From Achromobacter xylosoxidans (lineage in GTDB: Bacteria > Pseudomonadota > Gammaproteobacteria > Burkholderiales > Burkholderiaceae_B), in the NCBI RefSeq assembly GCF_014490035.1, contig NZ_CP061008.1, positions 6,324,001 to 6,388,000 on the forward strand: a stretch of 64,000 bases of DNA. Direction: 5' to 3'. The position numbers were made by a program, and so were the translations under genes. Below, one piece after another: positions 30,121 to 45,120 of this stretch (position 1 is its first letter; every line of letters starts with the position of its first letter). The notes under the pieces were generated by a model. The model saw nothing but the letters and a program-made list of their open reading frames with translations. It was not told the DNA's origin and searched no databases.

Positions 30121-30753
30121 ATGACCCTCGCCACCCTGCTGCTCTTCATCCTGGCCTCGGCCGTCACCATCATCACGCCAGGCCCCACCGTCCTGCTCGC
30201 CATGAGCAACGGTTCGCGCCACGGCGTGCGCGCGGCCTGCTGGGGCATGGCCGGCGCGGTACTGGCCGACCTGGTCCTGATCGGCGCGGTGGCGTCGGGC
30301 CTGGGCGTGGTGCTGGCGGCGTCCGAAATCGCCTTCCAGCTCATCAAATGGGTGGGCGCGGCCTATCTGGCCTATCTGGGCTGGAAGATGCTGCGCTCGG
30401 ACGCGGCGCTGGTCATGCCTGCCGCCCAGGCGGACGCCCGGCGTCCGGCCGGCCTGGCACTAGGCCTGCGCAGCTTCGCGGTGGCGCTGACCAACCCCAA
30501 GGCGCTGCTGTTCATGTCCGCCTTCCTGCCCCAGTTCATCAATCCGGCCGCCCCTCTGCTGGCGCAATACGCCGTGCTGGCCGGGGTCATGGCGCTGATG
30601 AACATCGCCGTGATGCTGGCCTATGCCGCGCTGGGCGCCCAGATGGTGCGCGCCTTCCAGGGCGCCGGCCTGCGCTGGCTGAACCGCGTCTGCGGGGGGC
30701 TGCTGATTGGGCTGGCGGGGACGCTGGCCTTGTACCGGCGCAGCGCGCCTTGA
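30121..30753 (+). CDS. LysE/RhtB-family amino-acid exporter
   Basis: The 210-residue protein has about six hydrophobic segments. The family signature is TIITPGPTVLLAMSNGSRHG (residues 17-36). AYLAYLGWKML and FAVALTNPKALLFMSAFLPQF follow. Such carriers export amino acids such as threonine, homoserine or leucine, driven by the proton gradient. It is divergent from rsmB and converges on the IclR gene 28 bp away. The substrate cannot be told from sequence. Confidence 0.9.
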   Translation: MTLATLLLFILASAVTIITPGPTVLLAMSNGSRHGVRAACWGMAGAVLADLVLIGAVASGLGVVLAASEIAFQLIKWVGAAYLAYLGWKMLRSDAALVMPAAQADARRPAGLALGLRSFAVALTNPKALLFMSAFLPQFINPAAPLLAQYAVLAGVMALMNIAVMLAYAALGAQMVRAFQGAGLRWLNRVCGGLLIGLAGTLALYRRSAP

Positions 30754-30781
30754 GCGGTTTTCCCCGCGGCGAGGCCGCCCG

Positions 30782-31534
30782 CTAGGCCCGCCCCAGCTGT
30801 CGCGACAAAAAGCTGCAGGTCGCCACCAGCAGCTTGGCGCACTCGGCCACGTTGCCCTCCATGCGGTGCTTGGGTCCGGCAACCGCCACGGCCAGCGTCT
30901 CGTTGTTGATGGTAAGCGTCGTCGCGACTGCCCACACGTCGTAGACGTTCTCGCCCCGGGTCACGAAATAGCCGTTCTTGCGGCTTTCCAGAATGTCCTG
31001 GATCAGCGCCGCATGCTCCGTCTTGGTCTCCGGCGTGATCGCGGCGAGTTGCTGGTCTTCCAGCCATGCGCGCAGCTCGCGCTCCTTCAGGGTGCCCAGG
31101 AAGGCCTTGCCGATGGAACTCGAATGCAGCGGCTTGAACTCCCCGGGCTTGGCCGAATAGCGGATGGAGTGCAGCCCCTCGATGACCTGCAGGTAGATCG
31201 CCGATTCGCCCAGGCGCTTGCCCAGGATCACGGTTTCGCGCGTGGAATCGCGCAGCCGCTCCAGGACCTGGGTGACGTGCTCGATGAACGGGTCTTTGGC
31301 CAGGATGTCGCTCGTCACGTCATACATGCGTTTGGTGGGATACAGCGTGCGCGGACGGTTCAGCGTGTACAGGTAGCCGCGCGCCGTCAGCGTCGAAACG
31401 ATGGCATGGCAGGTGCTCTTGGGAATGCCGGCCGCCTCGGCCAGGTCGGTCAGCGATAAAGGCCGTTCGTTGGCCTGAAACGCTTCAAAGACGTCAAGCA
31501 CACGCTCGACGCCGGTCACCGTGACTCCAGACAT
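30782..31534 (-). CDS. IclR-family transcriptional regulator of the mutase island
   Basis: The 250-residue protein has the IclR winged helix (about 8-70: TGVERVLDVFEAF, LSLTDLAEAAGIPKSTCHAIVSTL) and the IclR ligand domain (about 80-245: GKRLGESAIYLQVIEG, SSIGKAFLG, FVTRGENVYDVWAVATTL). I set the start at ATG 31534, preceded by AAGGAAG. Longer in-frame extensions upstream have no ribosome binding site and cross the promoter region. It is divergent from the crotonase-mutase operon, which it most likely controls in response to a pathway intermediate (inference). Confidence 0.9.
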   Translation of the reverse strand: MSGVTVTGVERVLDVFEAFQANERPLSLTDLAEAAGIPKSTCHAIVSTLTARGYLYTLNRPRTLYPTKRMYDVTSDILAKDPFIEHVTQVLERLRDSTRETVILGKRLGESAIYLQVIEGLHSIRYSAKPGEFKPLHSSSIGKAFLGTLKERELRAWLEDQQLAAITPETKTEHAALIQDILESRKNGYFVTRGENVYDVWAVATTLTINNETLAVAVAGPKHRMEGNVAECAKLLVATCSFLSRQLGRA

Positions 31535-31625
31535 GGCGCTTCCTTCATGGAAAGTGGGATAGCCGAAATTCAGCCCGCTGAATAAATCCGATAAATCCGT
31601 TCCGTTCCCGATTTGCCGCAGGATT

Positions 31626-31645
31626 TTGTTCGTAATACCGAACAA
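31626..31645. promoter_or_regulatory. Candidate IclR operator TTGTTCG-N6-CGAACAA
   Basis: The 7-bp arms are perfect, with a 6-bp spacer, in the divergent control region. It lies just upstream of the possible -35 of the mutase operon, where an IclR activator would bind. GTTCCCGA also occurs twice nearby (31604 and 31654). Confidence 0.45.
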
Positions 31646-31651
31646 CTGTCC

Positions 31652-31680
31652 TTGTTCCCGAATATTTTGCTTCATACCAT
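31652..31680 (+). promoter_or_regulatory. Possible promoter of the mutase operon
   Basis: TTGTTC (31652-31657) and TACCAT (31675-31680) are separated by 17 bp, 39 bp before the crotonase start. The -10 is weak, as expected of an activator-dependent promoter. Confidence 0.3.
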
Positions 31681-31718
31681 CCTCAGCACGCAATACACCT
31701 CGACGGAGATCAGAAAGC

Positions 31719-32494
31719 GTGCAGACGAACAAGGACATCGCGGTAGAGGAGCGCGCAGGCGGCGAAGTGTGGGTCACCATCGAGCGGCCGCACAAGCACA
31801 ACGCGCTTGCCCGCACGGTGCTCACCGAACTCGGCCAGGCAGTGCTGGCGTTGGGCGCGCGCAAGGATACGCGCTTCGTCGTGCTGACCGGCGCCGGCGA
31901 CCGGTTCTTCGCGGCGGGCGGCGATCTGGTGGAACTGGCCGACGTGCGCGAAGAAGCCGCAGCCATCGACATGGCCGAACAATCCCGCGCCGCGCTGGAC
32001 GCAGTGCGCAACTGCCCTGTACCGGTGCTGGCCTACCTGAACGGCGACGCGATCGGCGGCGGCGCCGAGCTGGCCCTGGCCTGCGACATGCGCATGCTGG
32101 CCAGCCACGCGCACATCGGCTTCATCCAGGCGCGTCTGGCCATCTCGTCCGTGTGGGGCGGCGGCGTCGATCTGTGCCAATTGGCCGGCGGCGCCCGCGC
32201 CATGCGCATGATGAGCCGCGGCGAACTGATAGACGCGCCGCTGGCGTTGGACTGGGGCCTGGCCGACGCCATCGGCTCCGACGGGCCAGCGGGCGCGGAC
32301 ATGCAGGCCTTCCTCAAGCCGCTGCGACTCTGCGCGCCGCAGGTACTGCGGGCCATCAAGGCGCAAACCGCGGCCTGGCGCCAAGGCGCATCGTACGAGG
32401 CGCGCCGCGCCGTCGAACGGCAGCACGCGATCGGCACCTGGCTGCATGAGGATCACTGGCGCGCGTCCGACGCGTTTCTTGCGAGGAGTGCCAA

Positions 32495-32498
<4 letters not shown>
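31719..32498 (+). CDS. Crotonase-superfamily enzyme, possible acyl-CoA decarboxylase
   Basis: The 259-residue protein has the crotonase fold: oxyanion-hole segments RFFAAGGDLVEL and AIGGGAELALACDMRML. The first hydratase glutamate (GGGAEL) is present. By eye the second one falls in FIQARLAISSVWGGG, where no Glu is found, so a classical hydratase is unlikely. Methylmalonyl-CoA decarboxylase (ScpB) is a crotonase that sits in the E. coli mutase operon, which suggests a similar role here (inference). I chose the GTG start at 31719 because of GGAGAT upstream. The stop overlaps the mutase start by 4 bp. Confidence 0.8.
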
Positions 32499-34113
<1,615 letters not shown>

Positions 34114-34117
<4 letters not shown>

Positions 34118-34530
34118 GCGCCCAACAGACCTCTGCCGCCCTGGCGGCCAAGCGTATCCTGATCGGCAAGCCCGGCCTGGACGGCCACGATATCGGCGCC
34201 AAGATCGTCGCGCTGACACTGCGCAACGCAGGCGCGGAAGTCATCTACACCGGCCTGCGCCGCAGCCCGCTGCAGATCGCGCAGGTCGCGGTGGACGAAG
34301 GCGTGGACGCGGTCGGCCTGAGCATCCTGTCCGGCAGCCACCGAGAGCTGGTCGCCGAGGTCATGGCGCAGCTGCGTGAACTGCGGGCGCACGGCGTGAA
34401 GGTCTTCGTGGGCGGCACCATTCCCGCCGAAGACTGGCCCTACCTGAAAGAACTGGGCGTGGCGGCGATCTTCACCGCAGACATGCCGCTGGACGACATG
34501 GTCCGGGCCCTGGCGCAGAGCCTGTCATGA
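34114..34530 (+). CDS. Acyl-CoA mutase small subunit, B12-binding
   Basis: The 138-residue protein is a stand-alone cobalamin-binding domain. It has the DxHxxG motif in KPGLDGHDIGAKIV, whose histidine ligates cobalt in the base-off/His-on mode, together with LSILSGSH and VFVGGTIP lining the nucleotide tail. It completes the catalytic subunit encoded upstream, with a 4-bp ATGA overlap. Split large/small subunits are known for isobutyryl- and 2-hydroxyisobutyryl-CoA mutases and for archaeal methylmalonyl-CoA mutase. Confidence 0.94.
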
Positions 34531-35654
34531 ACGCGCCGCTCGCGGGGATCCGGATCGTCGAAGTCGGCCACATGCTGGCCGGCCCCTATTGCGGCCTGAT
34601 GCTGGCCGACATGGGCGCCGAGGTCATCAAGATCGAAACGCCCGAAGGCGATATCGGTCGCAGCGTCAGCCCCCATTTCGTGGGCCCGCACAACGCCTAC
34701 TTCGCCAGCCTGAACCGCAACAAGAAGAGCGTGGTGCTCGACCTGGCCGGCGACGAGGGTCGCGCGGCGCTGGGGCGCATCGTCGAAACCTCGCACGCGC
34801 TGGTGACCAACCTGCGGCCTTCGGCCATCCGCAAGCTCGGCCTCACCTACGACGCGCTGCGGCGCTGGAACGAACGGCTGGTCTGCGTGGCGTTGACCGG
34901 TTATGGACTGGACGGCCCCTACGCGGACAATCCCGCCTACGACTATGTCATCCAGGCGATGACGGGCGTCATGGCGTTGACCGGCGACCCCGACGCGCCG
35001 CCCACCAAGGCCGGCTATTCGGCGGTCGACAACTCCGCCGGCCTGGTGGCCGCGGTAGGACTGCTGGCCAAGATCGTGCAGGGCCAGGGCGGCCAGGTCG
35101 ACGTGGCGATGTACGACGTCATGCTCTCGCAGCTCAACTACCTGGCAGGCGCGGCGCTGAACGCGGGCGAAACCATAGAGCGCCTGGCGGACTCCTCGCA
35201 CCCCTATGTAGTGCCGGCGCAGATTTTCGCGACGGCGAACGGCTGGCTCACGCTGTTCATCACCCACGACAAATTCTGGCAGACCTTCTGCGGCGAGATC
35301 GGTCGCCCCGAATGGATCGCGGACCCGAAGTTCGCCACCATGGCGGGACGCCGCAAGCACAGGGCCGAGGTCATCGCCGCCATCGCGCAAGTGCTGCGCC
35401 AGGCGCCCGCCAGCGCGTGGGTGCGCCGCCTGAGCCCGCTGGGCGTGGTGGTGGCCGAGGTCGGCACCTTGAATGCGGCGCTTTCCAGCGACATCACCGC
35501 TGCCCGCGAACTGGTCGTGGCACTGGGCGATGGCCGCCTGCCGCTGCAGGCCGTGGCCAGCCCGATCCGCTTCCAGGGGTATGCCCCCGCCTATGGCTTG
35601 CCCCCGCTGCTGGACGAGCACGGCGACGAAGTGCTGGGCAGGGTCAGGACATGA
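34527..35654 (+). CDS. Class III (CaiB/BaiF-type) CoA-transferase
   Basis: The 375-residue protein starts with the family pattern GIRIVEVGHMLAGPYCGLMLADMGAEVIKIE. It has RNKKSVVLDLAGDEGR and the catalytic aspartate in NPAYDYVIQAMTGVM (about residue 135). These enzymes transfer CoA between carboxylic acids in the cytoplasm. In this operon it probably makes the CoA ester that feeds the mutase, with succinyl-CoA or a product CoA ester as donor (inference). It is unrelated in fold to ScpC, the transferase of the E. coli sbm operon. It overlaps both neighbours by 4 bp. Confidence 0.92.
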   Translation: MNAPLAGIRIVEVGHMLAGPYCGLMLADMGAEVIKIETPEGDIGRSVSPHFVGPHNAYFASLNRNKKSVVLDLAGDEGRAALGRIVETSHALVTNLRPSAIRKLGLTYDALRRWNERLVCVALTGYGLDGPYADNPAYDYVIQAMTGVMALTGDPDAPPTKAGYSAVDNSAGLVAAVGLLAKIVQGQGGQVDVAMYDVMLSQLNYLAGAALNAGETIERLADSSHPYVVPAQIFATANGWLTLFITHDKFWQTFCGEIGRPEWIADPKFATMAGRRKHRAEVIAAIAQVLRQAPASAWVRRLSPLGVVVAEVGTLNAALSSDITAARELVVALGDGRLPLQAVASPIRFQGYAPAYGLPPLLDEHGDEVLGRVRT

Positions 35655-36556
35655 GCGCCCCGCCCCTGGACCGCTGGGCGCTGAGCCGCGCGCTCACGCG
35701 CATGGCCAACGCCGACGCTGCTGAAGTTGCGCGCTTCGCGCTGCGCGACGCGACGTCGCACGCCGCCCGGCGGATCGGCATCACAGGAGCTCCCGGCGCC
35801 GGCAAGAGCACCCTGGTCGGACACCTGGCGCTGGAACGCGCGCCGCAGGGACGGCTGGGCGTGCTGGCCGTCGATCCGAGCAGCCCGAAGAGCGGCGGCG
35901 CCATCCTGGGCGACCGCGTGCGCATGGACGACCTGGCCGGCATCGGCGACTTGTACATCCGCTCGCTGGGTTCGCGCCGCACTTGCGACGGGCTGGCCGA
36001 CAACCTGCCCGAGATGCTCGACATCATGGACGAGTTCGGTTTCGACGAAGTGCTTCTGGAGACGGTCGGCATCGGCCAGGCCGAGTATGCAGCCCGTGCG
36101 CAAGTCGACACGCTGGTGCTGGTCCTGCTGCCCGAAAGCGGCGACATGGTCCAGGCCATGAAGGCCGGCATCATGGAAATGGCCGACATCTACGTCGTGA
36201 ACAAGGCGGACCTGCCGGGCGCGAAAAGAATGGCCACCGACATACAGCGCATCGCCGCTGTGAACCGGCAACCGGAGGGAGCGTGGCGCGCGCCGGTGCT
36301 GCTGGCCTCGTCCACGCAACCGGACTCGATCCGGGCGCTATCGGAAGCCATAGACCGGCATCAAGCCTGGCGCGCCACCGACCCGGCACGGCGCCAGCGC
36401 CTGCGCGCCGAGCGGCTGCGCTACCGGCTGCGGCGCATGCTCGAAATGCGCATCGCACATGCCATCTCGCACGCGGACGATGGCTTGTTCGACGCCCCAC
36501 TACGCCAGCAGATGAGCCGGATACTCGCCGCAGCCGGCGCCACGCTCGATTCTTGA
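35651..36556 (+). CDS. meaB: MeaB/ArgK-type mutase-chaperone GTPase
   Basis: The 301-residue G3E GTPase has the P-loop GITGAPGAGKSTLVGHL (about 41-57), VDPSSPKSGGAILGDRVRM, the switch region LETVGIGQAEYA and the base-specificity motif NKAD. MeaB proteins load and protect adenosylcobalamin on acyl-CoA mutases. The C-terminal dimerisation arm is Arg-rich. The start overlaps the CoA-transferase stop by 4 bp, and the coupling to the mutase genes confirms the partner. Confidence 0.95.
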   Translation: MSAPPLDRWALSRALTRMANADAAEVARFALRDATSHAARRIGITGAPGAGKSTLVGHLALERAPQGRLGVLAVDPSSPKSGGAILGDRVRMDDLAGIGDLYIRSLGSRRTCDGLADNLPEMLDIMDEFGFDEVLLETVGIGQAEYAARAQVDTLVLVLLPESGDMVQAMKAGIMEMADIYVVNKADLPGAKRMATDIQRIAAVNRQPEGAWRAPVLLASSTQPDSIRALSEAIDRHQAWRATDPARRQRLRAERLRYRLRRMLEMRIAHAISHADDGLFDAPLRQQMSRILAAAGATLDS

Positions 36557-36572
36557 CCCCCGGGGACCCGTC

Positions 36573-37538
36573 ATGCTCACACGCCTGTTCGCATCGCTGT
36601 TGACCGCCGTCTGCATCGCCGCGCCGGCTGCGGGCGCGGACGCCGCATTTCCAGACAAGCCTGTCAGGATCATCGTCCCGCAGACGCCGGGCGGCGCCTC
36701 CGATGTGCTGGCCCGCATCATCGGCCAGAAGCTCACGGCCAAATGGGGCCAACCAGTAGTGGTGGAAAACCACGCCGGCGCGGGCGGCAATGTGGGTATG
36801 GAACTGGTCGTGCGCGCCGCGCCCGACGGCTACACCCTGCTGATGAGCTACGTCGGCACCCAAGCCATCAACGGCGCGCTGTACCGCAAGCTTTCCTTTG
36901 ATCCTGTCCGGGATTTCGCGCCGGTCGCCACGCTGGCCACCCTGCCCTTCGTGATGGTGACCCGGGCGGACTCGCCGTTCAAGACCGTTGCCGCGGTCGT
37001 GGCTGCCGCGCGCACGTCGCACATCACCTACGGCTCGGCCGGCAATGGCTCCGTCAATCACCTGCTGGGGGAGATGTTCAACGCCGCCACCGGCGTCAAG
37101 CTCACGCACATTCCCTACCGGGGCGCGGCGCCGGCGCTGCAGGACTTGATGGGAGGACGGATCCAGGTGGTGTTCACCAGCCTGCCCTCCGTCATCGGCG
37201 CCCTCAAGAGTGCCACCCTTTATCCGATTGCCGTCACCAGCGCGCGCCCCGCCGCCGCATTCGACAGCATTCCAACCATCGCGCAGGCCGGGTTCAAGGA
37301 CTTCGACGTCAATCCGTGGTTCGGCCTCATGGCCCCCGGACGCACGCCCCCCGCGTTGATCCAAAAGATCAATAGCGACGTGAACGACATCCTGCGCACG
37401 CCGGAAGTCGCGGCCAGCTTCGCAGCGCAGGGCGCCGAACCCTACATCACGCAGCCGGATGAGTTCGCGGAGATCCTGCGGGTCGATGCCCTGAAGTGGG
37501 GCGAAGTGGTGCGCGCCTCCGGCGCGCAAGTGGATTGA
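36573..37538 (+). CDS. Bug/TctC-family binding protein of the mutase island
   Basis: The 321-residue exported protein has a signal peptide (about 1-23) and the Bug pattern FPDKPVRIIVPQTPGGASDVLARIIGQ, NHAGAGGNVGMELVVRAAPDGYTLL and GSAGNGSVNHLLGEMF. It starts 16 bp after meaB in the same operon, so it probably binds the pathway substrate, presumably a carboxylate, in the periplasm (inference). No matching permease is encoded in the island. Confidence 0.9.
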   Translation: MLTRLFASLLTAVCIAAPAAGADAAFPDKPVRIIVPQTPGGASDVLARIIGQKLTAKWGQPVVVENHAGAGGNVGMELVVRAAPDGYTLLMSYVGTQAINGALYRKLSFDPVRDFAPVATLATLPFVMVTRADSPFKTVAAVVAAARTSHITYGSAGNGSVNHLLGEMFNAATGVKLTHIPYRGAAPALQDLMGGRIQVVFTSLPSVIGALKSATLYPIAVTSARPAAAFDSIPTIAQAGFKDFDVNPWFGLMAPGRTPPALIQKINSDVNDILRTPEVAASFAAQGAEPYITQPDEFAEILRVDALKWGEVVRASGAQVD

Positions 37539-37541
37539 TCC

Positions 37542-37883
37542 ATGTCGCGCGCGCTGATCCGGTCGTTGAAGAAGACGCAGCGCCTGGGAGCGCATGCCCA
37601 GGCATCGACCGCGCAGCGGCAGGACGCGCGTTCGGCCGCGCAATCGCTGTTGCAACGCAGTGTGAGATTCAAGCATGACCGCCTGGCCGTCCTGCGGCTG
37701 GCGAACGCGGTACAGCTGGGCGCCAACGTCGACGAGACGCTGTGGGATTACTGCCTTGCGGTAGCAAGCAATTTGGCGGACCCGACGCAGTTGCAGAAGG
37801 TCCTGGCGCTGCGCCGCGGCGCGACGGACCAGCCGACCGGCGGCACAACGCCGGCGGAACCGAACCCCAGGAGACAGGCATGA
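37542..37883 (+). CDS. Unknown 113-residue protein locked into the operon
   Basis: I do not recognise this protein. It has no signal peptide, membrane segment or cysteine-rich motif. The first 45 residues are rich in Arg, Lys, Ala and Gln (KKTQRLGAHAQASTAQRQDAR), the middle looks helical (LAVLRLANAVQLGANVDETLWDYCLAVASNL), and the tail is Pro/Thr-rich. It starts 3 bp after the Bug gene stop, and its own stop overlaps the next start by 4 bp, so it is very likely translated. It may be a soluble accessory factor. No function can be assigned. Confidence 0.6.
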   Translation: MSRALIRSLKKTQRLGAHAQASTAQRQDARSAAQSLLQRSVRFKHDRLAVLRLANAVQLGANVDETLWDYCLAVASNLADPTQLQKVLALRRGATDQPTGGTTPAEPNPRRQA

Positions 37884-39121
37884 GAACTTCTTCCTATCGC
37901 TGTTCGTTGCGCAAGCTTCCGTCGCCAGGCCGCCGCGTCATGGCGTCCCTGTTCTGCCTCGCGTCCTGTGCCCCCGCCTGGGCCCTGGCAAGCGGCGACG
38001 TCATCAAGATCGGCGTGCTGGCCGACATGTCGGGCATCTATTCGGACATGGGCGGCGCCGGCATCACCGAGGCGGTCAGGATGGCCATTGCCGATTTCGG
38101 CGGCCAGGTCCACGGCAAGAAGATCGAGGTCGTCACGTCCAATCATTCGGCCAAGCCCGACGTCGCGGCGACCGCGGCGCGCGGCTGGTTCGACACCCAA
38201 GGGGTGGACATGATCATCAGCGGCCCCAGCTCGGGCACCAGCCTGGCCATCGCCACGGTCGCGGCGGAAAAAAAGAAGATCGTCATCGTCACGGGCGGCG
38301 TCGCCGCCCAGCTGACCAACGAGGAATGCTCGCCGTACACGGTCCACTACCTCTATGACACGGTGGCCCTGGCCCGCGGCACCGGCACCGCCATGACGCG
38401 GCAAGGCGGCAAGACCTGGTACTTCCTGACCGTCGACTACGCCTTCGGCAAGTCGCTGGAGAAAGAGACCACGGAGGTCGTCAAGGCCAATGGCGGCAGC
38501 GTGCTGGGCAGCGTGCGCCATCCCCTGTCCACCCCCGATTTCTCGTCCTTCCTGTTGCAGGCCAAAGCCTCGGGCGCGCAAGTCCTGGGACTGGCCAACG
38601 GCGGCGCCGACACCATCAACTCCGTCAAGGCCGCGAGCGAGTTCGGCCTGTCTTCGTCGATGAAACTGGCGGGTTTGATGCTGTTCATCACCGACGTGCA
38701 TGCGCTGGGGCTGGAGCAGACCCGCGGCATCAACCTGACCGAAGCCTGGTACTGGGACTCGGACGATAAATCGCGCGCCTGGGCCGCCCGCTTCCAGCAG
38801 AAGATGAACAAGATGCCCACCAGCATGCAGGCAGCCAGCTACTCGGCCACGCTGCACTATCTGCAGGCTGTCCAGCACGCGGCCACCAGCCAGGCCGAGG
38901 ACGTGATGGCGCAGATGCGGAAAGAGAAAATCAACGACATGTACACGCAAAACGGCTACATCCGGGAGGACGGCCGCATGGTCCACGATCTGCGGCTCAT
39001 GGAGATCAAGAGCCCGGCCGAATCCAAGGGGCCTTGGGACTATTACAAGCAGGTGCAGATGATTCCCGGAGAGCAGGCGTTTGCCTCCAAGGCGGAATCC
39101 AAGTGCAAGTTCTGGAACTGA
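37880..39121 (+). CDS. ABC-type periplasmic binding protein (Leu/Ile/Val-binding family)
   Basis: The 413-residue protein has a signal peptide (about 1-36). It carries the Peripla_BP_6 fold typical of branched-chain amino acid and amide binding proteins (IKIGVLADMSGIYSDMGGAGITEAVRMAI, GPSSGTSLAIATVAAEKKKIVIVTGG, SPDFSSFLLQAKASGAQVL-type segment). CAGGAGAC precedes the ATG. It overlaps the unknown gene by 4 bp. It is the second binding protein of the island and again has no permease or ATPase genes beside it. Such proteins can also feed signalling or use distant permeases. Confidence 0.87.
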   Translation: MRTSSYRCSLRKLPSPGRRVMASLFCLASCAPAWALASGDVIKIGVLADMSGIYSDMGGAGITEAVRMAIADFGGQVHGKKIEVVTSNHSAKPDVAATAARGWFDTQGVDMIISGPSSGTSLAIATVAAEKKKIVIVTGGVAAQLTNEECSPYTVHYLYDTVALARGTGTAMTRQGGKTWYFLTVDYAFGKSLEKETTEVVKANGGSVLGSVRHPLSTPDFSSFLLQAKASGAQVLGLANGGADTINSVKAASEFGLSSSMKLAGLMLFITDVHALGLEQTRGINLTEAWYWDSDDKSRAWAARFQQKMNKMPTSMQAASYSATLHYLQAVQHAATSQAEDVMAQMRKEKINDMYTQNGYIREDGRMVHDLRLMEIKSPAESKGPWDYYKQVQMIPGEQAFASKAESKCKFWN

Positions 39122-39158
39122 TGAAAACGCCGTCCGAGTGTTTGAAGACCAGAGTGGT

Positions 39159-39172
39159 TTGGTAACTACCAA
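39159..39172. promoter_or_regulatory. Palindrome TTGGTA-AC-TACCAA before the oxygenase gene
   Basis: It sits 21 bp before the oxygenase ATG, in the 72-bp gap that breaks the otherwise coupled operon. The 11-mer TTTGGTAACTA (39158-39168) recurs exactly at 45547-45557 over the start of the HxlR gene. Confidence 0.45.
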
Positions 39173-39193
39173 TACATCAAGGAGACATGGATC

Positions 39194-40270
39194 ATGACTA
39201 CTTCAGTGAATCAGGTAAGCGCTTCGGAAAACGTCAGGCAAGCCATCGAAAGCGGTAAGGGCCTGCCAATTCTCGACGTCGGCCCCTATCTGGCCGGCGA
39301 ACCCGGCGCGCTCGAACAGTTGGCGGCCGACGTGCGTTGGATCCAGGAAAACCTGGGCTTCTTCGCCATCGTCAACCATGGCATTCCGCAGGAACTCATC
39401 GACGAATCATTCCGCCAGACCGCCCAGCTCTTCGAGATCCCGATGGAAGAAAAGCTCAGGCACCGGGTCGGCTTCCACCACCAGGGCTATCTGCCGCCCA
39501 AGGCATCGATCCTGCAATCGACCGCCATCAAAGAGAAGATCGCGCTCAATACCAAGAAGGACACCAATGCCGCGTGGCTCTTCATGCGCAACCGCACGGC
39601 CGACGATCCCAAGGTCGTCGCCAATGTGCGGCACCGCGGCCTGAACCAATGGCCCGAAAGCCTGCCAGAATTCCGCAAGACGCTGTTCACCTACCAGACC
39701 TCCATGGAGGCGCTCGCGACCAAGCTGCTGCCGATCTATGCGCGGGCGCTGGATCTCCCGGCCGAGTATTTCAACGACATGTTCAAGGCACCCGAGTACT
39801 ACCAGCGCTGCGCTTACTACCATCCGGAAGAACGCATGGAGGAAGGCCAGTACGCCCTGGCCCCGCACTCCGACGGCAGCTTCCTGACGCTGCTGCCGAT
39901 GACGCCGGTGCCGGGCCTGCAGGTCATGACGCCTTCCAAGGAATGGCTCAACGTGACCTACGTCAAGGACGCGCTGATCGTGAACACCGGCCAGGTCCTC
40001 AACCGCCTGTCCAATGACCGCTTCATCGCCACCCCGCACCGCGTGGTCAATCCGCCGATGAAGCGCTACGCGCTCACGTTCTTCTTCTACCCCGACGACG
40101 ACGCCAACGTCGGCCCCATCCCGGCCTGTGTCAAACCGGGCGAAAAGGCCAAGTACGACTCCCGCTCCTTCTACGACTTCTTCGTGCCCTACCTGGACGA
40201 TCTGTACCACTACAACGATCCCAAGTTCATGAGCGAAGTCGAGCCCGAAGGCATCCGTTCGCAAGCCTGA
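39194..40270 (+). CDS. 2-oxoglutarate/Fe(II) oxygenase, isopenicillin-N-synthase-like
   Basis: The 358-residue cytoplasmic enzyme has the N-terminal DIOX_N pattern (LPILDVGPYLAGEPGAL, NLGFFAIVNHGIPQELID). The C-terminal Fe/2OG domain has the metal triad in APHSDGSFLTLL (His and Asp) and ATPHRVVNPPMKRYALTFFF (His), with the Arg of RYA for 2-oxoglutarate. It should hydroxylate a small organic molecule, producing succinate and CO2 from 2-oxoglutarate. AAGGAG precedes the ATG. It is followed by aldehyde dehydrogenase and SDR genes, fitting an oxidative start of the island pathway (inference). Confidence 0.92.
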   Translation: MTTSVNQVSASENVRQAIESGKGLPILDVGPYLAGEPGALEQLAADVRWIQENLGFFAIVNHGIPQELIDESFRQTAQLFEIPMEEKLRHRVGFHHQGYLPPKASILQSTAIKEKIALNTKKDTNAAWLFMRNRTADDPKVVANVRHRGLNQWPESLPEFRKTLFTYQTSMEALATKLLPIYARALDLPAEYFNDMFKAPEYYQRCAYYHPEERMEEGQYALAPHSDGSFLTLLPMTPVPGLQVMTPSKEWLNVTYVKDALIVNTGQVLNRLSNDRFIATPHRVVNPPMKRYALTFFFYPDDDANVGPIPACVKPGEKAKYDSRSFYDFFVPYLDDLYHYNDPKFMSEVEPEGIRSQA

Positions 40271-40338
40271 CGGCGTGCGGCTGCGGGCGGCAGCGCCTTC
40301 GAGGCCGCTGCCGCCGTCTCAACATCAAGGAGCGGCGC

Positions 40339-41772
40339 GTGAACAAATTGTTGATCGACGGCCGGTGGGTCGATGCGCTCGACGGCGAAACAATAGATGT
40401 CATCGATCCCTGCAGCGGGGAGGCCTTCACGCGGATCGCGCGCGGCCGGGCGGCGGACGTGGACCTGGCGGTCGCGGCGGCGCGGCGGGCGGTGGAAGGC
40501 GCCTGGGGCAGCATGACGGCGACCGAACGCGGCCGGATCCTGCAACGCCTGGGCCAACTCATCCTGGACCATGGCGAAGAACTGGCCGACCTGGAAGCGC
40601 GCGACACCGGCAAGCCCATGTCCGTGGCGCGCGCGGACGCCGGGGCCGTGGCCCGCTACTTCGAGTTCTACGGCGGCGCGGCCGACAAGGTACACGGGCA
40701 GACCATTCCTTACCTGTCCGGCTACAACGTCAGCGTGGTCCGCATTCCGCATGGCGTCACGGCCCACATCATTCCCTGGAACTATCCCGCGCAAATGATG
40801 GGACGCACGCTGGCGCCGGCCTTGGCCATGGGCAACGCGGCGGTGGTCAAACCCTCCGAGGATGCCTGCCTGACCGTCCTGAAGCTGGGCGAGCTGGCGC
40901 TGCAAGCCGGCCTTCCGCCTGGCGCGCTCAACATCGTGACGGGCTATGGCGCGGAAGCCGGCGCGGCGCTGACCGCGCACCCCGGCATCAACTTCGCGAC
41001 CTTCACCGGGTCCCCGGAAGTCGGCATCCAGGTCCAGCAAGCCACCGCGCGCAACCATGTGCCCTGCGTGTTGGAACTGGGCGGAAAATCGCCGCAAATC
41101 GTATTCGACGACGCGGACCTGGCGAAGGCCGCGCCCATCATCGTCCGGGCCATCGTCCAGAACGCGGGCCAGACCTGCTCCGCCGGCAGCCGCCTGTTGG
41201 TGCAACAGAGCATTCATGACCGCTTCGTCGATATCATCGCGACCCGCTACGCCGAGCTGAAGGCCGGCACGCCGCAGATGGATCTGGACTGCGGTCCGCT
41301 GATCAACGCGCGGCAACGCGACAAGGTGCAGGCCTTCATCGCCGAGGCTACCGCCATGGGCGTGCCGATGCTTGCGCAAGGCAACCTGGCGCCAGACCTG
41401 CCCGCCGGCGGGTACTTCGTCAAGCCGGCCTTGTTCGGCCCGGTCCCCCGTGAACACCGCCTGGCCTGCCAGGAAGTCTTTGGCCCGGTGCTTTCAGTCA
41501 TGCCGTTCAGCGACGAGGACGACGCCGTCCGGCTGGCCAATGCGACGGACTACGGCCTGGTCGCGGGCGTCTGGACGGAGAACGGCAGCCGCCAGTCCCG
41601 CTTGGCGCAGCGTATCGCCAGCGGCCAGGTATTCATCAATTGCTACGGCGCGGGCGGCGGCGTGGAACTGCCCTTCGGCGGCGTCAAGAAAAGCGGCTAC
41701 GGCCGCGAAAAGGGGTTTGTCGCCCTGGAAGAAATGAGTACGACCAAGACCATTGTTCAACACTACGCATAA
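40339..41772 (+). CDS. NAD(P)-dependent aldehyde dehydrogenase
   Basis: The 477-residue enzyme has all ALDH landmarks: IIPWNYPAQMMGRTLAPALAMGNAAVVKPSE, FTGSPEVG, the catalytic Glu in LELGGKSPQIV, the nucleophilic Cys in NAGQTCSAGSRLLV, and GPVLSVMPF. It starts with GTG after AAGGAG. It oxidises an aldehyde to the acid, here probably the product of the upstream oxygenase or SDR. Betaine/gamma-aminobutyraldehyde-type ALDHs are its nearest general class, but the substrate is not predictable. Confidence 0.93.
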   Translation: MNKLLIDGRWVDALDGETIDVIDPCSGEAFTRIARGRAADVDLAVAAARRAVEGAWGSMTATERGRILQRLGQLILDHGEELADLEARDTGKPMSVARADAGAVARYFEFYGGAADKVHGQTIPYLSGYNVSVVRIPHGVTAHIIPWNYPAQMMGRTLAPALAMGNAAVVKPSEDACLTVLKLGELALQAGLPPGALNIVTGYGAEAGAALTAHPGINFATFTGSPEVGIQVQQATARNHVPCVLELGGKSPQIVFDDADLAKAAPIIVRAIVQNAGQTCSAGSRLLVQQSIHDRFVDIIATRYAELKAGTPQMDLDCGPLINARQRDKVQAFIAEATAMGVPMLAQGNLAPDLPAGGYFVKPALFGPVPREHRLACQEVFGPVLSVMPFSDEDDAVRLANATDYGLVAGVWTENGSRQSRLAQRIASGQVFINCYGAGGGVELPFGGVKKSGYGREKGFVALEEMSTTKTIVQHYA

Positions 41773-41783
41773 GGAATGCCATC

Positions 41784-42536
41784 ATGTCCGGATTGAGCAA
41801 CAAGATCGCGATCGTCACGGGAGCGGGCAGCGGCTTCGGTGCCGCCATCGCCCGCGCCTATGCAAAGGCAAACGCCAAGGTCGTCCTCGCCGACCTCAAT
41901 CTCGAAGCCGCCCAGCGGGTCGCCAAGGAGCTTGGCGAAAACGGCAGCGCCGTCGCCTGCGACGTCAGCAACGGCGACCAGGTGCAGGCTATGGTGCGCC
42001 ATTGCGTGGCACGTTTCGGCGCGCCCGACGTGGTGATCAACAACGCCGGCACCACGCACCGCAACCAGCCCATGCTGGATGTGGACGAAGCGACCTTCGA
42101 CCGCGTTTTCGCGGTCAACGTGAAGTCGATCTATCTCATGGCACAGGCGGTCATTCCCCTGATGCGGGAGAAGAAGGACGGCGTGATCATCAATGTAGGC
42201 TCGGTGGGCGCCATCCGGCCGCGTCCCGGCCTGACTTGGTACAACAGTTCGAAGGGCGCGGTCAGGGTCATGACCAAGTCGATGGCCGCCGAACTCGCCT
42301 CGGACGGCATCCGCGTCAATCTCATTTCGCCGGTCATGGCGCCCACTGGGCTGCTCAACGACTTCATGGGCGTGGCCGACAATGCCGAAAACCGGGCCCG
42401 CTTCGTGTCGACGATACCGCTGGGCCGGATGTGCGATCCCGACGACGTGGCGAACGTGGCCGTATTCCTGGCCAGCGCCGAAGCGCGCTTCCTGACCGGC
42501 GTCGAAGTCCCGGTCGACGGCGGACGTTCCATCTAA
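41784..42536 (+). CDS. Short-chain dehydrogenase/reductase
   Basis: The 250-residue classical SDR has the cofactor motif VTGAGSGFGAAIARAYA (about 11-27), NNAG, the catalytic Ser in INVGSVGAIRPRPG, and the YxxxK motif in WYNSSKGAVRVMTKSMA. Asp at the end of the second strand (VVLADLN) suggests NAD(H). It starts 12 bp after the aldehyde dehydrogenase with AAGGAA. In the pathway it may oxidise an alcohol made by the oxygenase (inference). Confidence 0.92.
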   Translation: MSGLSNKIAIVTGAGSGFGAAIARAYAKANAKVVLADLNLEAAQRVAKELGENGSAVACDVSNGDQVQAMVRHCVARFGAPDVVINNAGTTHRNQPMLDVDEATFDRVFAVNVKSIYLMAQAVIPLMREKKDGVIINVGSVGAIRPRPGLTWYNSSKGAVRVMTKSMAAELASDGIRVNLISPVMAPTGLLNDFMGVADNAENRARFVSTIPLGRMCDPDDVANVAVFLASAEARFLTGVEVPVDGGRSI

Positions 42537-42602
42537 GACAAGGGGCGCGGCCCCGTCAGACGCTTGCGCGCGCCGCGCGCGGCCCGACCCAGGAAGGAAA
42601 CC

Positions 42603-43160
42603 ATGGCCAACCGCTTATCCGTCATCGCCACCCGCACCGGCGATGACGGCACCACCGGACTGGGCGACGGCTCGCGCACGCCCAAGGACGCCCCTCGCAT
42701 CGCCGCCTTGGGCGATGTGGACGAACTGAATAGCGTCATCGGCGTATTGCTTGCCGAAAATCTGCCCGACGACGTCGCGGCGGATCTGCACGTCATCCAG
42801 AACGACCTGTTCGACATGGGCGCCGAGCTCTGCATCCCCGGGCATCGCGCGCTGGACGAGGCACAGATCGCCCATCTGGACCGCCGCCTGGCGCACTATA
42901 ACGCCGCCCTGCCGCCCCTGAAGGAATTCATTCTGCCCGGCGGCTCGCGCGCATCGGCGCAATTCCACATGGCCCGCACCGTCTGCCGCCGCGCCGAACG
43001 CGCGGTAGTGGCGCTGGCGCGCACCGGCAGTCTCAACCCGACGGTGCGCCAGTACCTCAACCGGCTTTCGGATCTGATGTTCGTGCTGGCTCGCGACGCG
43101 AACCGGCGGCTGGGCTTGTCAGATGTGTATTGGAGCAGTCAGCATTCGCGATCGACTTGA
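42603..43160 (+). CDS. pduO: ATP:cob(I)alamin adenosyltransferase, PduO type
   Basis: The 185-residue enzyme makes adenosylcobalamin from cob(I)alamin and ATP. Motifs are the N-terminal ATRTGDDGTTGLGDGSR that binds ATP, ALGDVDELNSVIGVL, ILPGGSRASAQFHMARTVCRRAERAVV and YLNRLSDLMFVLARDAN. The ATG follows AGGAAGGAAA. Its place at the end of the island supplies the cofactor of the mutase. It is 66 bp after the SDR on the same strand, so co-transcription is likely. Confidence 0.95.
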   Translation: MANRLSVIATRTGDDGTTGLGDGSRTPKDAPRIAALGDVDELNSVIGVLLAENLPDDVAADLHVIQNDLFDMGAELCIPGHRALDEAQIAHLDRRLAHYNAALPPLKEFILPGGSRASAQFHMARTVCRRAERAVVALARTGSLNPTVRQYLNRLSDLMFVLARDANRRLGLSDVYWSSQHSRST

Positions 43161-43243
43161 CCTTCTCGCAGAGTGAAGGTGTCCACCGCCGGGCAAGGAG
43201 GTGCGCCATGGTCCATCAAGTCTCGGCCCTGCCGCACCTGGCC

Positions 43244-43262
43244 TACGGCAATGCCGTATAAT
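43244..43262 (+). promoter_or_regulatory. Operator palindrome overlapping a -10 box
   Basis: TACGGCA-A-TGCCGTA (43244-43258) is a perfect 15-bp palindrome with the same design as 1936-1950. TATAAT at 43257-43262 overlaps its end, so binding would block the promoter of the downstream HTH gene. The -35 region is not consensus. Confidence 0.6.
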
Positions 43263-43345
43263 TAAAAATTCGCCTTCGCCCCCAATCATGGTGCGACGGC
43301 ATGACCCCCTGGGACGCCGCACAGGCGCCCGACTTTTGAAGAGCC

Positions 43346-43603
43346 ATGAAGAATGCTGCCCCGACGGCGCGCAGCGCACCGTGGCAGGCGTCGCATATCA
43401 GCGAAGCACGCAATCGCGTGGGCCTGCCGCAAACGGATTTCGCTGAGCTGCTGGGCGTGAGCGTGCGCACGCTGCAAGATTGGGAGCAAGGACGGCGCAC
43501 CCCCTCGGGTGCGGCAAAGACCCTGCTACAGGTAGCAATGCTGCACCCCGAGACCCTGCGAGAGCTGCCCCCGTGGCCCGCCAACGAACACGCTGAATCT
43601 TGA
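43346..43603 (+). CDS. Solitary antitoxin-like HTH regulator
   Basis: This 85-residue protein is essentially one XRE-type helix-turn-helix (about 18-72, with LPQTDFAELLGVSVRTLQDWEQGRRTPSG), closely similar to the antitoxin at 2224-2583 in its recognition region. No toxin gene precedes or follows it. The 185-bp upstream stretch holds only the promoter-operator and a 12-codon frame. GAAGAG precedes the ATG. It probably represses itself through the palindrome at 43244-43258 and may act as a free regulator or as a guard against a related toxin. Confidence 0.8.
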   Translation: MKNAAPTARSAPWQASHISEARNRVGLPQTDFAELLGVSVRTLQDWEQGRRTPSGAAKTLLQVAMLHPETLRELPPWPANEHAES

Positions 43604-43646
43604 GGCCAGCCGCCCCGGCCTCGCCCGACATGAAAAACACATCCGC

Positions 43647-43675
43647 CGCGCGACACGCTTGCCGCGCGTTTTTTT
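43647..43675 (+). terminator. Intrinsic terminator of the HTH gene
   Basis: CGCGCG (43647-43652) and CGCGCG (43663-43668) form a stem with a 10-nt loop, followed by seven T residues. It lies 12 bp before the rimO start, so rimO needs a promoter inside or through the terminator. Confidence 0.7.
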
Positions 43676-43686
43676 GGTGAACGACA

Positions 43687-45120
43687 TTGGAAATCCTCGA
43701 AACCTCCCGGCCTGGCAAGGGCCCCGGCAAGGCCAACAGCGCTGACGCGAACGCGTCCGCCACCTCCGCCCTGGCCGACACTATCGCCGCGGCCAACGCC
43801 GACGGCCGAACCCCGCGCGTGGGCTTCGTATCCCTGGGCTGTCCCAAAGCCCTGGTCGACTCCGAACGCATCCTGACCCAGCTGCGGACCGAAGGGTACG
43901 TCGTCACGCCCGAGTACAACGATGCCGACGTGGTCGTGGTCAATACCTGCGGCTTCATCGACAGCGCCAAGGCGGAATCGCTGGAGGCCATCGGCGAAGC
44001 CCTGGCCGAGAACGGCAAGGTCATCGTGACCGGCTGCATGGGCGTCGAGGAATCGGTGATCCGCGACGTGCACCCCAGCGTGCTGGCCGTGACCGGCCCG
44101 CAGCAATACGAAGAGGTGGTGCGCGCGGTGCACCAGGCCGCGCCGCCCAAGAAGGACCACAACCCCTATCTGGACCTGGTGCCGCCGCAAGGCATCAAGC
44201 TCACGCCGCGCCACTACGCCTATCTGAAGATCTCGGAAGGCTGTAATCACCGCTGCAGCTTCTGCATCATCCCGTCGATGCGCGGCGACCTGGTCAGCCG
44301 GCCGGTGGGTGACGTGCTGAGCGAAGCCGAGCGCCTGGTCAAGGCGGGCGTGAAGGAATTGCTGGTGATCTCGCAAGACACCAGCGCCTATGGCGTGGAC
44401 ATGAAGTACCGCAGCGGTTTCTGGAACGGCCGTCCGGTAAAGACCCGCATGACCGAACTCTGTATGGCCTTGTCCGAGATGGGCGTGTGGACGCGCCTGC
44501 ACTACGTGTATCCGTACCCGCACGTGGACGAAGTCATTCCGCTGATGGCCGAGGGCAAGATCCTGCCCTACCTGGACATTCCGTTCCAGCACGCCAGCCC
44601 GCGCATCCTGAAGGCCATGAAGCGCCCGGCCTTCGAGGACAAGACCCTGGCCCGCATCAAGCGCTGGCGCGAGATCTGCCCGGATCTGACGATACGCTCG
44701 ACCTTCATTGTCGGCTTCCCCGGGGAAACCGAGGAAGACTTCCAGTACCTGCTGGACTGGATGCAGGAAGCGCAGCTGGACCGCGTGGGCTGTTTCCAGT
44801 ATTCGCCGGTGGAAGGCGCACCCGCGAACCTGCTGGACAATCCGGTGCCGGACGAGGTCAAGCAGGAACGTTGGGAACGCTTCATGGAGCTGCAGCAATC
44901 GATCTCCAGCGCCCGCCTGGCCAGGAAGGTGGGCCGCGAGATCGACGTGCTGATCGACGAAGTGGACGAAGACGGCGCCGTGGGCCGCAGCAGCGCCGAC
45001 GCGCCGGAGATCGACGGCTGCGTCTACGTCAGCTCGGACAAGCCCCTGAAGGCGGGCGACCTGGTGCGCGTGCGCGTCACCGATTCCGACGAATACGACC
45101 TCTGGGCCGACGCGATCTGA
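43687..45120 (+). CDS. rimO: Ribosomal protein S12 methylthiotransferase RimO
   Basis: The 477-residue radical-SAM enzyme adds a methylthio group to the conserved Asp of ribosomal protein S12. The N-terminal UPF0004 domain starts at [19 protein letters not shown]. The radical SAM cluster is in [19 protein letters not shown], and a C-terminal TRAM domain binds RNA. The TTG start at 43687 has GGTGA upstream and yields a 40-residue Ala/Ser-rich extension before the usual start. A later start near 43817 (GTG of RVGFVS) cannot be excluded. Confidence 0.93.

Follow-up and report, generated by a model that had tools for sequence, protein, structure and literature searches.

Gene content of the locus

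A stretch of 64,000 nucleotides from Achromobacter xylosoxidans (contig NZ_CP061008.1, positions 6,324,001 to 6,388,000), referred to as the window, was analyzed computationally, with attention to a cassette of 13 genes at positions 30782..43160 that encodes an adenosylcobalamin (AdoCbl)-dependent acyl-CoA mutase. An initial annotation had proposed a catabolic pathway for this cassette, and all 13 genes were found as named and in the order given there. The profile matches below were obtained with Pfam (PF) and NCBIfam models against the window proteins.

30782..31534, minus strand: IclR-type regulator (PF09339/PF01614), divergent from the cassette
31719..32498, plus strand: crotonase-fold enzyme (PF00378), predicted acyl-CoA decarboxylase
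32495..34117, plus strand: AdoCbl-dependent acyl-CoA mutase large subunit, 540 amino acids (aa) (PF01642, 618.7 bits)
34114..34530, plus strand: mutase small (B12-binding) subunit, 138 aa (PF02310, TIGR00640)
34527..35654, plus strand: class III CoA-transferase (PF02515, 361 bits, residues 5-365 of 375)
35651..36556, plus strand: divergent MeaB-type GTPase chaperone (PF03308; 221.4 bits, just under the TIGR00750 cut-off of 240.75)
36573..37538, plus strand: Bug/TctC solute receptor (PF03401; best solved match Bug27)
37542..37883, plus strand: small protein without a Pfam or NCBIfam match
37880..39121, plus strand: Leu/Ile/Val-type periplasmic binding protein (Peripla_BP_6)
39194..40270, plus strand: 2-oxoglutarate/Fe(II) oxygenase, IPNS-like (PF14226/PF03171)
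40339..41772, plus strand: aldehyde dehydrogenase (ALDH; 45 NCBIfam matches, the 25 listed all ALDH-type and none reaching its cut-off)
41784..42536, plus strand: short-chain dehydrogenase/reductase (SDR; PF13561/PF00106)
42603..43160, plus strand: PduO-type cob(I)alamin adenosyltransferase (PF01923; TIGR00636 over its cut-off)
30754..43345: whole accessory block, between LysE (30121-30753) and HTH/RimO (43346-45120)

Four successive ATGA overlaps between genes, as described earlier, were confirmed at 32495, 34114, 34527 and 35651, and a fifth, at 37880, joins the genes of the small protein and the Peripla_BP_6 protein. The CoA-transferase belongs to class III, with a PF02515 match that spans its full length. 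The DxHxxG of the small subunit, the Asp of the class III transferase and the P-loop of MeaB, which we take to be the relevant motifs, were intact by inspection. No permease was present among the 13 genes. In the whole genome (a single 6.76-Mb contig) the cassette mutase was the only PF01642 protein, and two PduO-type adenosyltransferase genes were found, that of the cassette included. Homologs of the small 37542..37883 protein sit after the Bug gene in loci L002 and L106 of relatives.

Mutase subfamily and active-site residues

Among the matches listed, the closest named mutase proteins were from Achromobacter; database names on the subfamily proteins were either "methylmalonyl-CoA mutase" or "acyl-CoA mutase large subunit family protein". 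A plasmid search with the mutase left a gap in identity: 7 records had 69.7-87.8%, and the other 421 were below 60%, the highest listed among them having 49.1%. The homolog lists for the mutase and the oxygenase consisted of the best 120 rows each. In a 64-row tree, made by a quick method and with the reference rows on long branches, 33 subfamily rows formed one side of a branch with an SH-aLRT support of 100. They were enclosed by a 44-row clade (support 99) together with 11 sister rows (8 actinobacterial, 1 deltaproteobacterial/myxococcal and 2 further), while E. coli Sbm and Methylibium HcmA were placed outside it; the 56 rows beyond this clade were represented by 20, namely the two references and every third remaining row. 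The mutase of L022 was aligned in two pieces; it is absent from the 33-row residue table and tree and is counted among the 34 subfamily loci. Loci L003 and L086 come from Paraburkholderia plasmids that are nearly identical to each other; the L007 contig is probably identical to that of genome G164.

Tyr67, Arg185 and His222 were kept in all 33 subfamily rows. Tyr67 and Arg185 are the counterparts of Tyr89 and Arg207 of methylmalonyl-CoA mutase (MCM), the pair that binds the carboxylate. Since both are kept, and are Ile and Gln in HcmA and ten HcmA-like Burkholderiales sequences, the substrate should, judging from the sequence, carry a carboxylate; this agrees with the dicarboxylate CoA ester suggested in the initial annotation. 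Ala221, Gly307, Val309 and Phe343 were likewise invariant (33/33) and occurred in 11 of the 67 other rows, these being sister rows. The same positions, which correspond to the active-site residues Tyr243, His328, Gln330 and His364 of MCM in P. shermanii numbering, are occupied by Tyr, His, Gln and His in Sbm and HcmA. The four replacements point to a remodelled pocket.

The enzyme was compared with the known mutase families. That it might be a plain MCM of propionate metabolism had been raised by the initial annotation as an objection to its own proposal, and was set aside on three grounds. The NF006944 equivalog cut-off was missed (531.3 vs 876 bits), this model describing a fused enzyme whereas the subunits are split here; the pocket residues A221/G307/V309/F343 (33/33) differed from the Y/H/Q/H of E. 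coli Sbm; and the six weak genome matches to methylmalonyl-CoA epimerase included none over 114.95 bits, the best scoring 35.7. Ethylmalonyl-CoA mutase (Ecm) is a single chain with a fused B12 domain, in contrast to the split cassette mutase. 2-Hydroxyisobutyryl-CoA mutase shares the split subunits (540 + 138 aa here); it was rejected on account of Tyr67 and Arg185, in place of which Methylibium HcmA has Ile and Gln, presumably its specificity residues. Another form of that enzyme is Kyrpidia RcmAB, according to the available text of PMC7176365.

Conservation of the core module and of its insertion site

A core of the crotonase, both mutase subunits, the class III CoA-transferase and MeaB, often with IclR, was found in alpha-, beta- and gammaproteobacteria, in the order IclR-crotonase-mutL-mutS-CoA-transferase-MeaB with variations. 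The carriers were Diaphorobacter, Paraburkholderia, Marinobacter, Sulfitobacter, Hydrogenophaga, Bradyrhizobium, Billgrantia, Litchfieldella and several metagenome-assembled genomes (MAGs). IclR homologs adjoin the modules of many relatives and were not found beside the mutase at L004, L013, L104, L105 and L112. Matches to the mutase (E<=1e-150) and to the CoA-transferase (E<=1e-140) were obtained in the identical 12 of 200 family genomes, one of which is that of the window, and the seven best plasmid records for the two proteins had identical accessions. In the order sample, where at most three candidates were scored per genome and counts may be low, 2 of the 399 genomes gave a mutase match at E<=1e-200, and a third (G462) gave one in two pieces at E<=1e-110. 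The initial annotation had called for a check of the whole set in other genomes: the core is conserved across three proteobacterial classes, but the binding protein, oxygenase, ALDH and SDR are an optional addition.

The site of the block was empty in all three complete same-genus genomes checked (G075, G192 and G168). Their flanks had the order TrkA - NtrY-like - DUF4390 - RsmB - LysE, followed by HTH/RimO, with a gap between LysE and HTH/RimO of about 1.5 kb in G075, 0.2 kb in G192 and 0.15 kb in G168; the small HTH gene was not found at the G168 flank. No cassette match was obtained at these empty sites with 11 of the 13 genes as queries, the set leaving out the mutase small subunit and the small 37542..37883 protein. 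Nor was there a mutase match at E<=1e-150 in the 10 same-genus genomes that the family sample lists besides the window's own. It was therefore concluded that the segment 30754-43345 was acquired or lost in one piece, and the block is a single accessory unit. Two results show that the gene set is more than a chance assembly: representatives of three proteobacterial classes carry the core, and 3/3 same-genus genomes lack the block at this locus.

Crotonase

The first catalytic Glu was kept in all 31 aligned module crotonases, and the position of the second was occupied by Gln (27/31) or His (4/31). The motif that follows reads AWGG in 28 of the 31, VWGG in the window (FIQ...VWGG) and GFSG in L003/L086. 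A crotonase of the same motif type adjoins the sister mutases in L024, L025 and L031 and lies 6-8 kb from those in L027 and L028. As this type is kept beside module and sister mutases alike, it suggests that the crotonase handles the product of the mutase. Compared with E. coli ScpB, the window crotonase was 24% identical over 161 residues (E-value 1.6e-10). Decarboxylation was inferred from the likeness to ScpB and to mammalian ECHDC1, the sequence similarity to the latter being our assumption. Abstracts on ECHDC1 state that it has decarboxylase activity.

Oxidative genes

The Fe ligands H225, D227 and H282 of the oxygenase, and also R291, were invariant in all 115 rows of an alignment of the window protein with 114 of the 120 listed homologs (those of at least 330 aa). 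The LivJ-2OG-ALDH-SDR set was linked to the mutase at 5 of the 34 subfamily loci (window, L002, L011, L104 and L105). An oxygenase ortholog (>=80% identity) was found in 3 of the 200 family genomes, all of them mutase carriers and one being the window's own, and lay about 5 kb from the mutase in each, in two orientations; in G042 and G072 the set forms a convergent block. Two further family genomes had oxygenase relatives at only 37-40% identity, and in the order sample the oxygenase was restricted to the window's genome (1/399, E<=1e-120). There were 30 oxygenase clusters of at least 73% identity whose longest contig measured 10 kb or more. In 12 of them this contig was exactly as long as that of a mutase cluster among the best 120 listed; linkage is read here from equal sizes, and with the best 120 rows as its basis the count is a lower bound. 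The oxidative front end proposed in the initial annotation is thus no part of the conserved core (5/34 loci), yet its linkage to the mutase held in all three genomes owning the oxygenase ortholog.

It was also observed that Hydrogenophaga sp. 2FB seems to hold two cassette copies (P0065 and P0131 vs L006), one with the oxygenase on a 40.4-kb contig and the other on a 135.9-kb contig, where no oxygenase was found within 10 kb. A second oxygenase group (P0185-P0240) was mostly 51-61% identical, with some members named from Alphaproteobacteria MAGs.

In L010, L106 and L112 a TauD-like dioxygenase (67-84% identity between these loci) is found no more than 1.4 kb from MeaB. Its ortholog (>=75%) was found in 21 of the 200 family genomes, that is, in 10 of the 12 mutase genomes vs 11 of the 188 others. 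The gene was not counted as part of the cassette, with linkage in two genomes only and shared ancestry not controlled. An IclR homolog adjoins it in 5, and a TRAP transporter in 3, of 10 other TauD regions, and the TRAP receptor there was 78-83% identical to the one beside the L110 mutase; this co-occurrence, again not controlled for ancestry, hints at a wider regulon. In L136, L139 and L144 a TauD-like dioxygenase is accompanied both by an IclR homolog and by a TRAP transporter (DctP/Q/M), and in two of these three genomes (G072 and G042) the mutase module is on another contig. A sulfosuccinate pathway was considered and dropped, since TauD-like attack would presumably give oxaloacetate, leaving the mutase without a use; no paper combining all the terms sought was found in the open-licence literature, where the word itself came up in one surfactant review (PMC5445686).

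Uptake proteins

A DctP receptor beside the module in L110, L003 and L086 had 4mco as its best solved relative (211 bits; the next had 86). The structure 4mco holds malonate, as stated in the available text of PMC4086125, and receptor relatives gave no other ligand. Liv ABC gene homologs come after the LivJ-2OG-ALDH-SDR set in L011. A substituted succinate or an alkylmalonate is favoured as the substrate by Tyr67 and Arg185 and, weakly, by the malonate of 4mco.

Proposed pathway and alternatives

We proposed that the locus is an accessory cassette for the aerobic catabolism of a short, substituted (branched) dicarboxylic acid, with a probability just under one half (about 0.48). The reactions, their direction and the substrate are inferred from the gene content, conservation, linkage and active-site composition described above. 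After uptake of the diacid, the class III CoA-transferase would load CoA onto it, probably from succinyl-CoA. The mutase, supplied with AdoCbl by MeaB and PduO, would move the thioester between neighbouring carbons, converting R-succinyl-CoA to R-substituted malonyl-CoA, and the crotonase-fold enzyme would decarboxylate this malonyl-type CoA to a plain acyl-CoA for beta-oxidation. An optional feeder in the window lineage may begin with the binding protein, followed by hydroxylation of a precursor by the 2-oxoglutarate oxygenase and oxidation to the diacid by SDR and ALDH. The coherent catabolic cassette of the initial annotation, with the Sbm-like logic of mutase, MeaB, crotonase and CoA-transferase, is supported. 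We further suggest, somewhat more tentatively, that the AGAH clade is a new class of AdoCbl acyl-CoA mutase for bulky, carboxylate-bearing branched acyl-CoA with a dedicated crotonase-type decarboxylase; together with the 2-oxoglutarate oxygenase feeder it may make up a route, aerobic and dependent on B12, that breaks down a dicarboxylate (or a methyl, ether or other precursor) of not-yet-described catabolism.

Several observations weigh against the proposed cassette. The crotonase is distant from ScpB (24% identity), most of the solved structures closest to it bear the name hydratase, and one missing Glu is no proof of decarboxylation. Crotonase of the motif type was found at only 5 of the 11 sister loci, and its pairing with the mutase is not universal, since in L012 IclR stands directly before the mutase with no crotonase between. 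L013, L018 and L022 lack a CoA-transferase between the small subunit and MeaB. The oxidative set was near only 5 of the 34 loci; of the 29 at which it was not found, 9 are on contigs shorter than 13 kb. The TauD-like gene is linked in only 2 of the 10 mutase genomes carrying it, and the window's genome has no ortholog of it at the >=75% cut-off. Importers vary among the loci (Bug, TAXI-TRAP, DctP-TRAP, MFS, Liv), and a single substrate is therefore not assured.

The opposite direction is unlikely, although several features would suit it. Here the feeder would make an alkylmalonate by turning a methyl beside a carboxyl into a second carboxyl, the mutase would convert its CoA ester to an R-succinyl-CoA for the tricarboxylic acid cycle, and the crotonase would act on a by-product or as a hydratase. 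The oxygenase, SDR and ALDH suit oxidation of a methyl to a carboxyl, the steps of IaaGH-type mutases are called reversible in the available text of PMC8360864, and the DctP receptor has a malonate-bound relative in 4mco (PMC4086125, in its available text); the crystal malonate, however, may be a buffer component. In addition, the crotonase accompanies the mutase at almost every module locus with enough room to show it (not L012) and in several sister loci, which would be odd for a side role, and no epimerase exceeded its cut-off.

It is also improbable that the core module belongs to one accessory pathway and the oxygenase/ALDH/SDR set to another, independent one that adjoins it in some betaproteobacteria. 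The scarcity of the oxidative set (5/34 loci), its arrangement as a separate convergent block in L104/L105 and the many relatives that have the core without it would agree with such independence; the spacing of about 5 kb between oxygenase and mutase in 3/3 family genomes owning the former, in two arrangements, the 12/30 contig coincidences and the single insertion unit in the window genome argue for a connection.

IaaGH, the phenylsuccinyl-/benzylmalonyl-CoA mutase of anaerobic indoleacetate degradation, was rejected as an identity of the cassette enzyme: the mutases of L157-L161 keep the Tyr and have I, G/A, A and C at positions 307/309/343/345, only C345 being common to the window, and no GGG-motif acyl-CoA dehydrogenase IaaF was found among the 13 cassette genes. 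An acyl-CoA dehydrogenase with the GGG motif given for IaaF in the available text of PMC8360864 adjoins the mutases of L175 and L178, where hydantoinase-like genes (named by eye) are present in both; two of these IaaG-type mutases were about 41% identical to the window mutase. An arylsuccinyl-CoA pathway of this kind, with an aromatic side chain in an enlarged pocket, is very unlikely, for although Y->A221 plausibly frees space and IaaL/IaaGH/IaaF follow the same order of steps, the IaaG-type mutases keep that Tyr, differ at the other changed positions and are only about 41% identical, and neither an acyl-CoA dehydrogenase nor a hydantoinase gene is among the window's 13.

Comparison with known systems

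The proposed dicarboxylate cassette would work like the Sbm pathway with an oxidative front of the type used for methyl tert-butyl ether (MTBE), and is filed as a member of neither. E. coli Sbm (scpA-argK-scpB-scpC) likewise combines a mutase, a GTPase chaperone, a crotonase-fold enzyme and a CoA-transferase in one operon. Its mutase, however, is a 714-aa single chain, 41.5% identical to the large subunit of the split cassette enzyme (540 + 138 aa) and with other pocket residues; its crotonase is 24% identical; and its CoA-transferase is of another class than the class III enzyme of the cassette.

The Methylibium HcmAB locus resembles the cassette in its split subunits, MeaB-like chaperone and nearby adenosyltransferase, but it has an AMP-binding (ligase) protein where the cassette has a CoA-transferase, and no crotonase is annotated in the 9.5 kb seen. 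HcmAB serves the MTBE/tert-butanol route, which passes through 2-hydroxyisobutyrate. As described in the available text of PMC7176365, this route runs through oxygenation, alcohol and aldehyde oxidation to the acid, CoA activation and isomerisation.

In the IaaL/IaaGH/IaaF system a CoA-transferase is followed by a mutase interconverting substituted succinyl-CoA and malonyl-CoA and then by decarboxylation (PMC8360864, available text). It shares the class III CoA-transferase and split mutase with the cassette, but the identities were about 41% (mutase) and 27% (transferase), the pocket residues differ, and the place of the GGG-motif acyl-CoA dehydrogenase IaaF is taken by a crotonase. MatB and ActD of matlystatin and actinonin are split hexylmalonyl-CoA mutases of the 2-hydroxyisobutyryl (2-HIB) subclass, proposed for substituted malonyl-/succinyl-CoA in the available text of PMC5719088; they are biosynthetic and are found with a carboxylase/reductase and an epimerase. 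These precedents for alkyl- and arylsuccinyl/malonyl-CoA mutases (PMC8360864, PMC5719088, as far as available) count in favour of the proposed dicarboxylate route. The claim that the pathway is undescribed stood insofar as no described pathway with this gene set was found in the open-licence literature, the one body searched; its logic, however, is the same as that of the MTBE/tert-butanol and indoleacetate routes.

The subfamily is well bounded and spans three proteobacterial classes. Since its partner genes are fairly constant and the changes in its pocket few, the substrate is directly testable. An assignment would put the annotation right and provide biotechnology with a further carbon-skeleton rearrangement; it may also account for the use of branched dicarboxylates by soil betaproteobacteria. 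To our knowledge, few natural specificities of acyl-CoA mutases have been established.

Other mutase loci

The actinobacterial sister mutases of L026, L027 and L029 are followed by a luciferase-like (LLM) oxidoreductase, a CoA-transferase match and an AMP-binding protein, together with two acyl-CoA dehydrogenase-like genes, the identities being assigned partly by eye. The L164 mutase (G209:C33:5257-6822), with small-subunit and MeaB matches just downstream, has Asn for the Tyr of the specificity pair and Cys for Tyr243, and is apparently another unassigned variant. On the Diaphorobacter sp. HDW4B plasmid NZ_CP049906 (L117:16522-27125) the segment immediately upstream of the cassette copy encodes a second split acyl-CoA mutase, accompanied by MeaB, a Liv-type ABC transporter and an AMP-binding protein.

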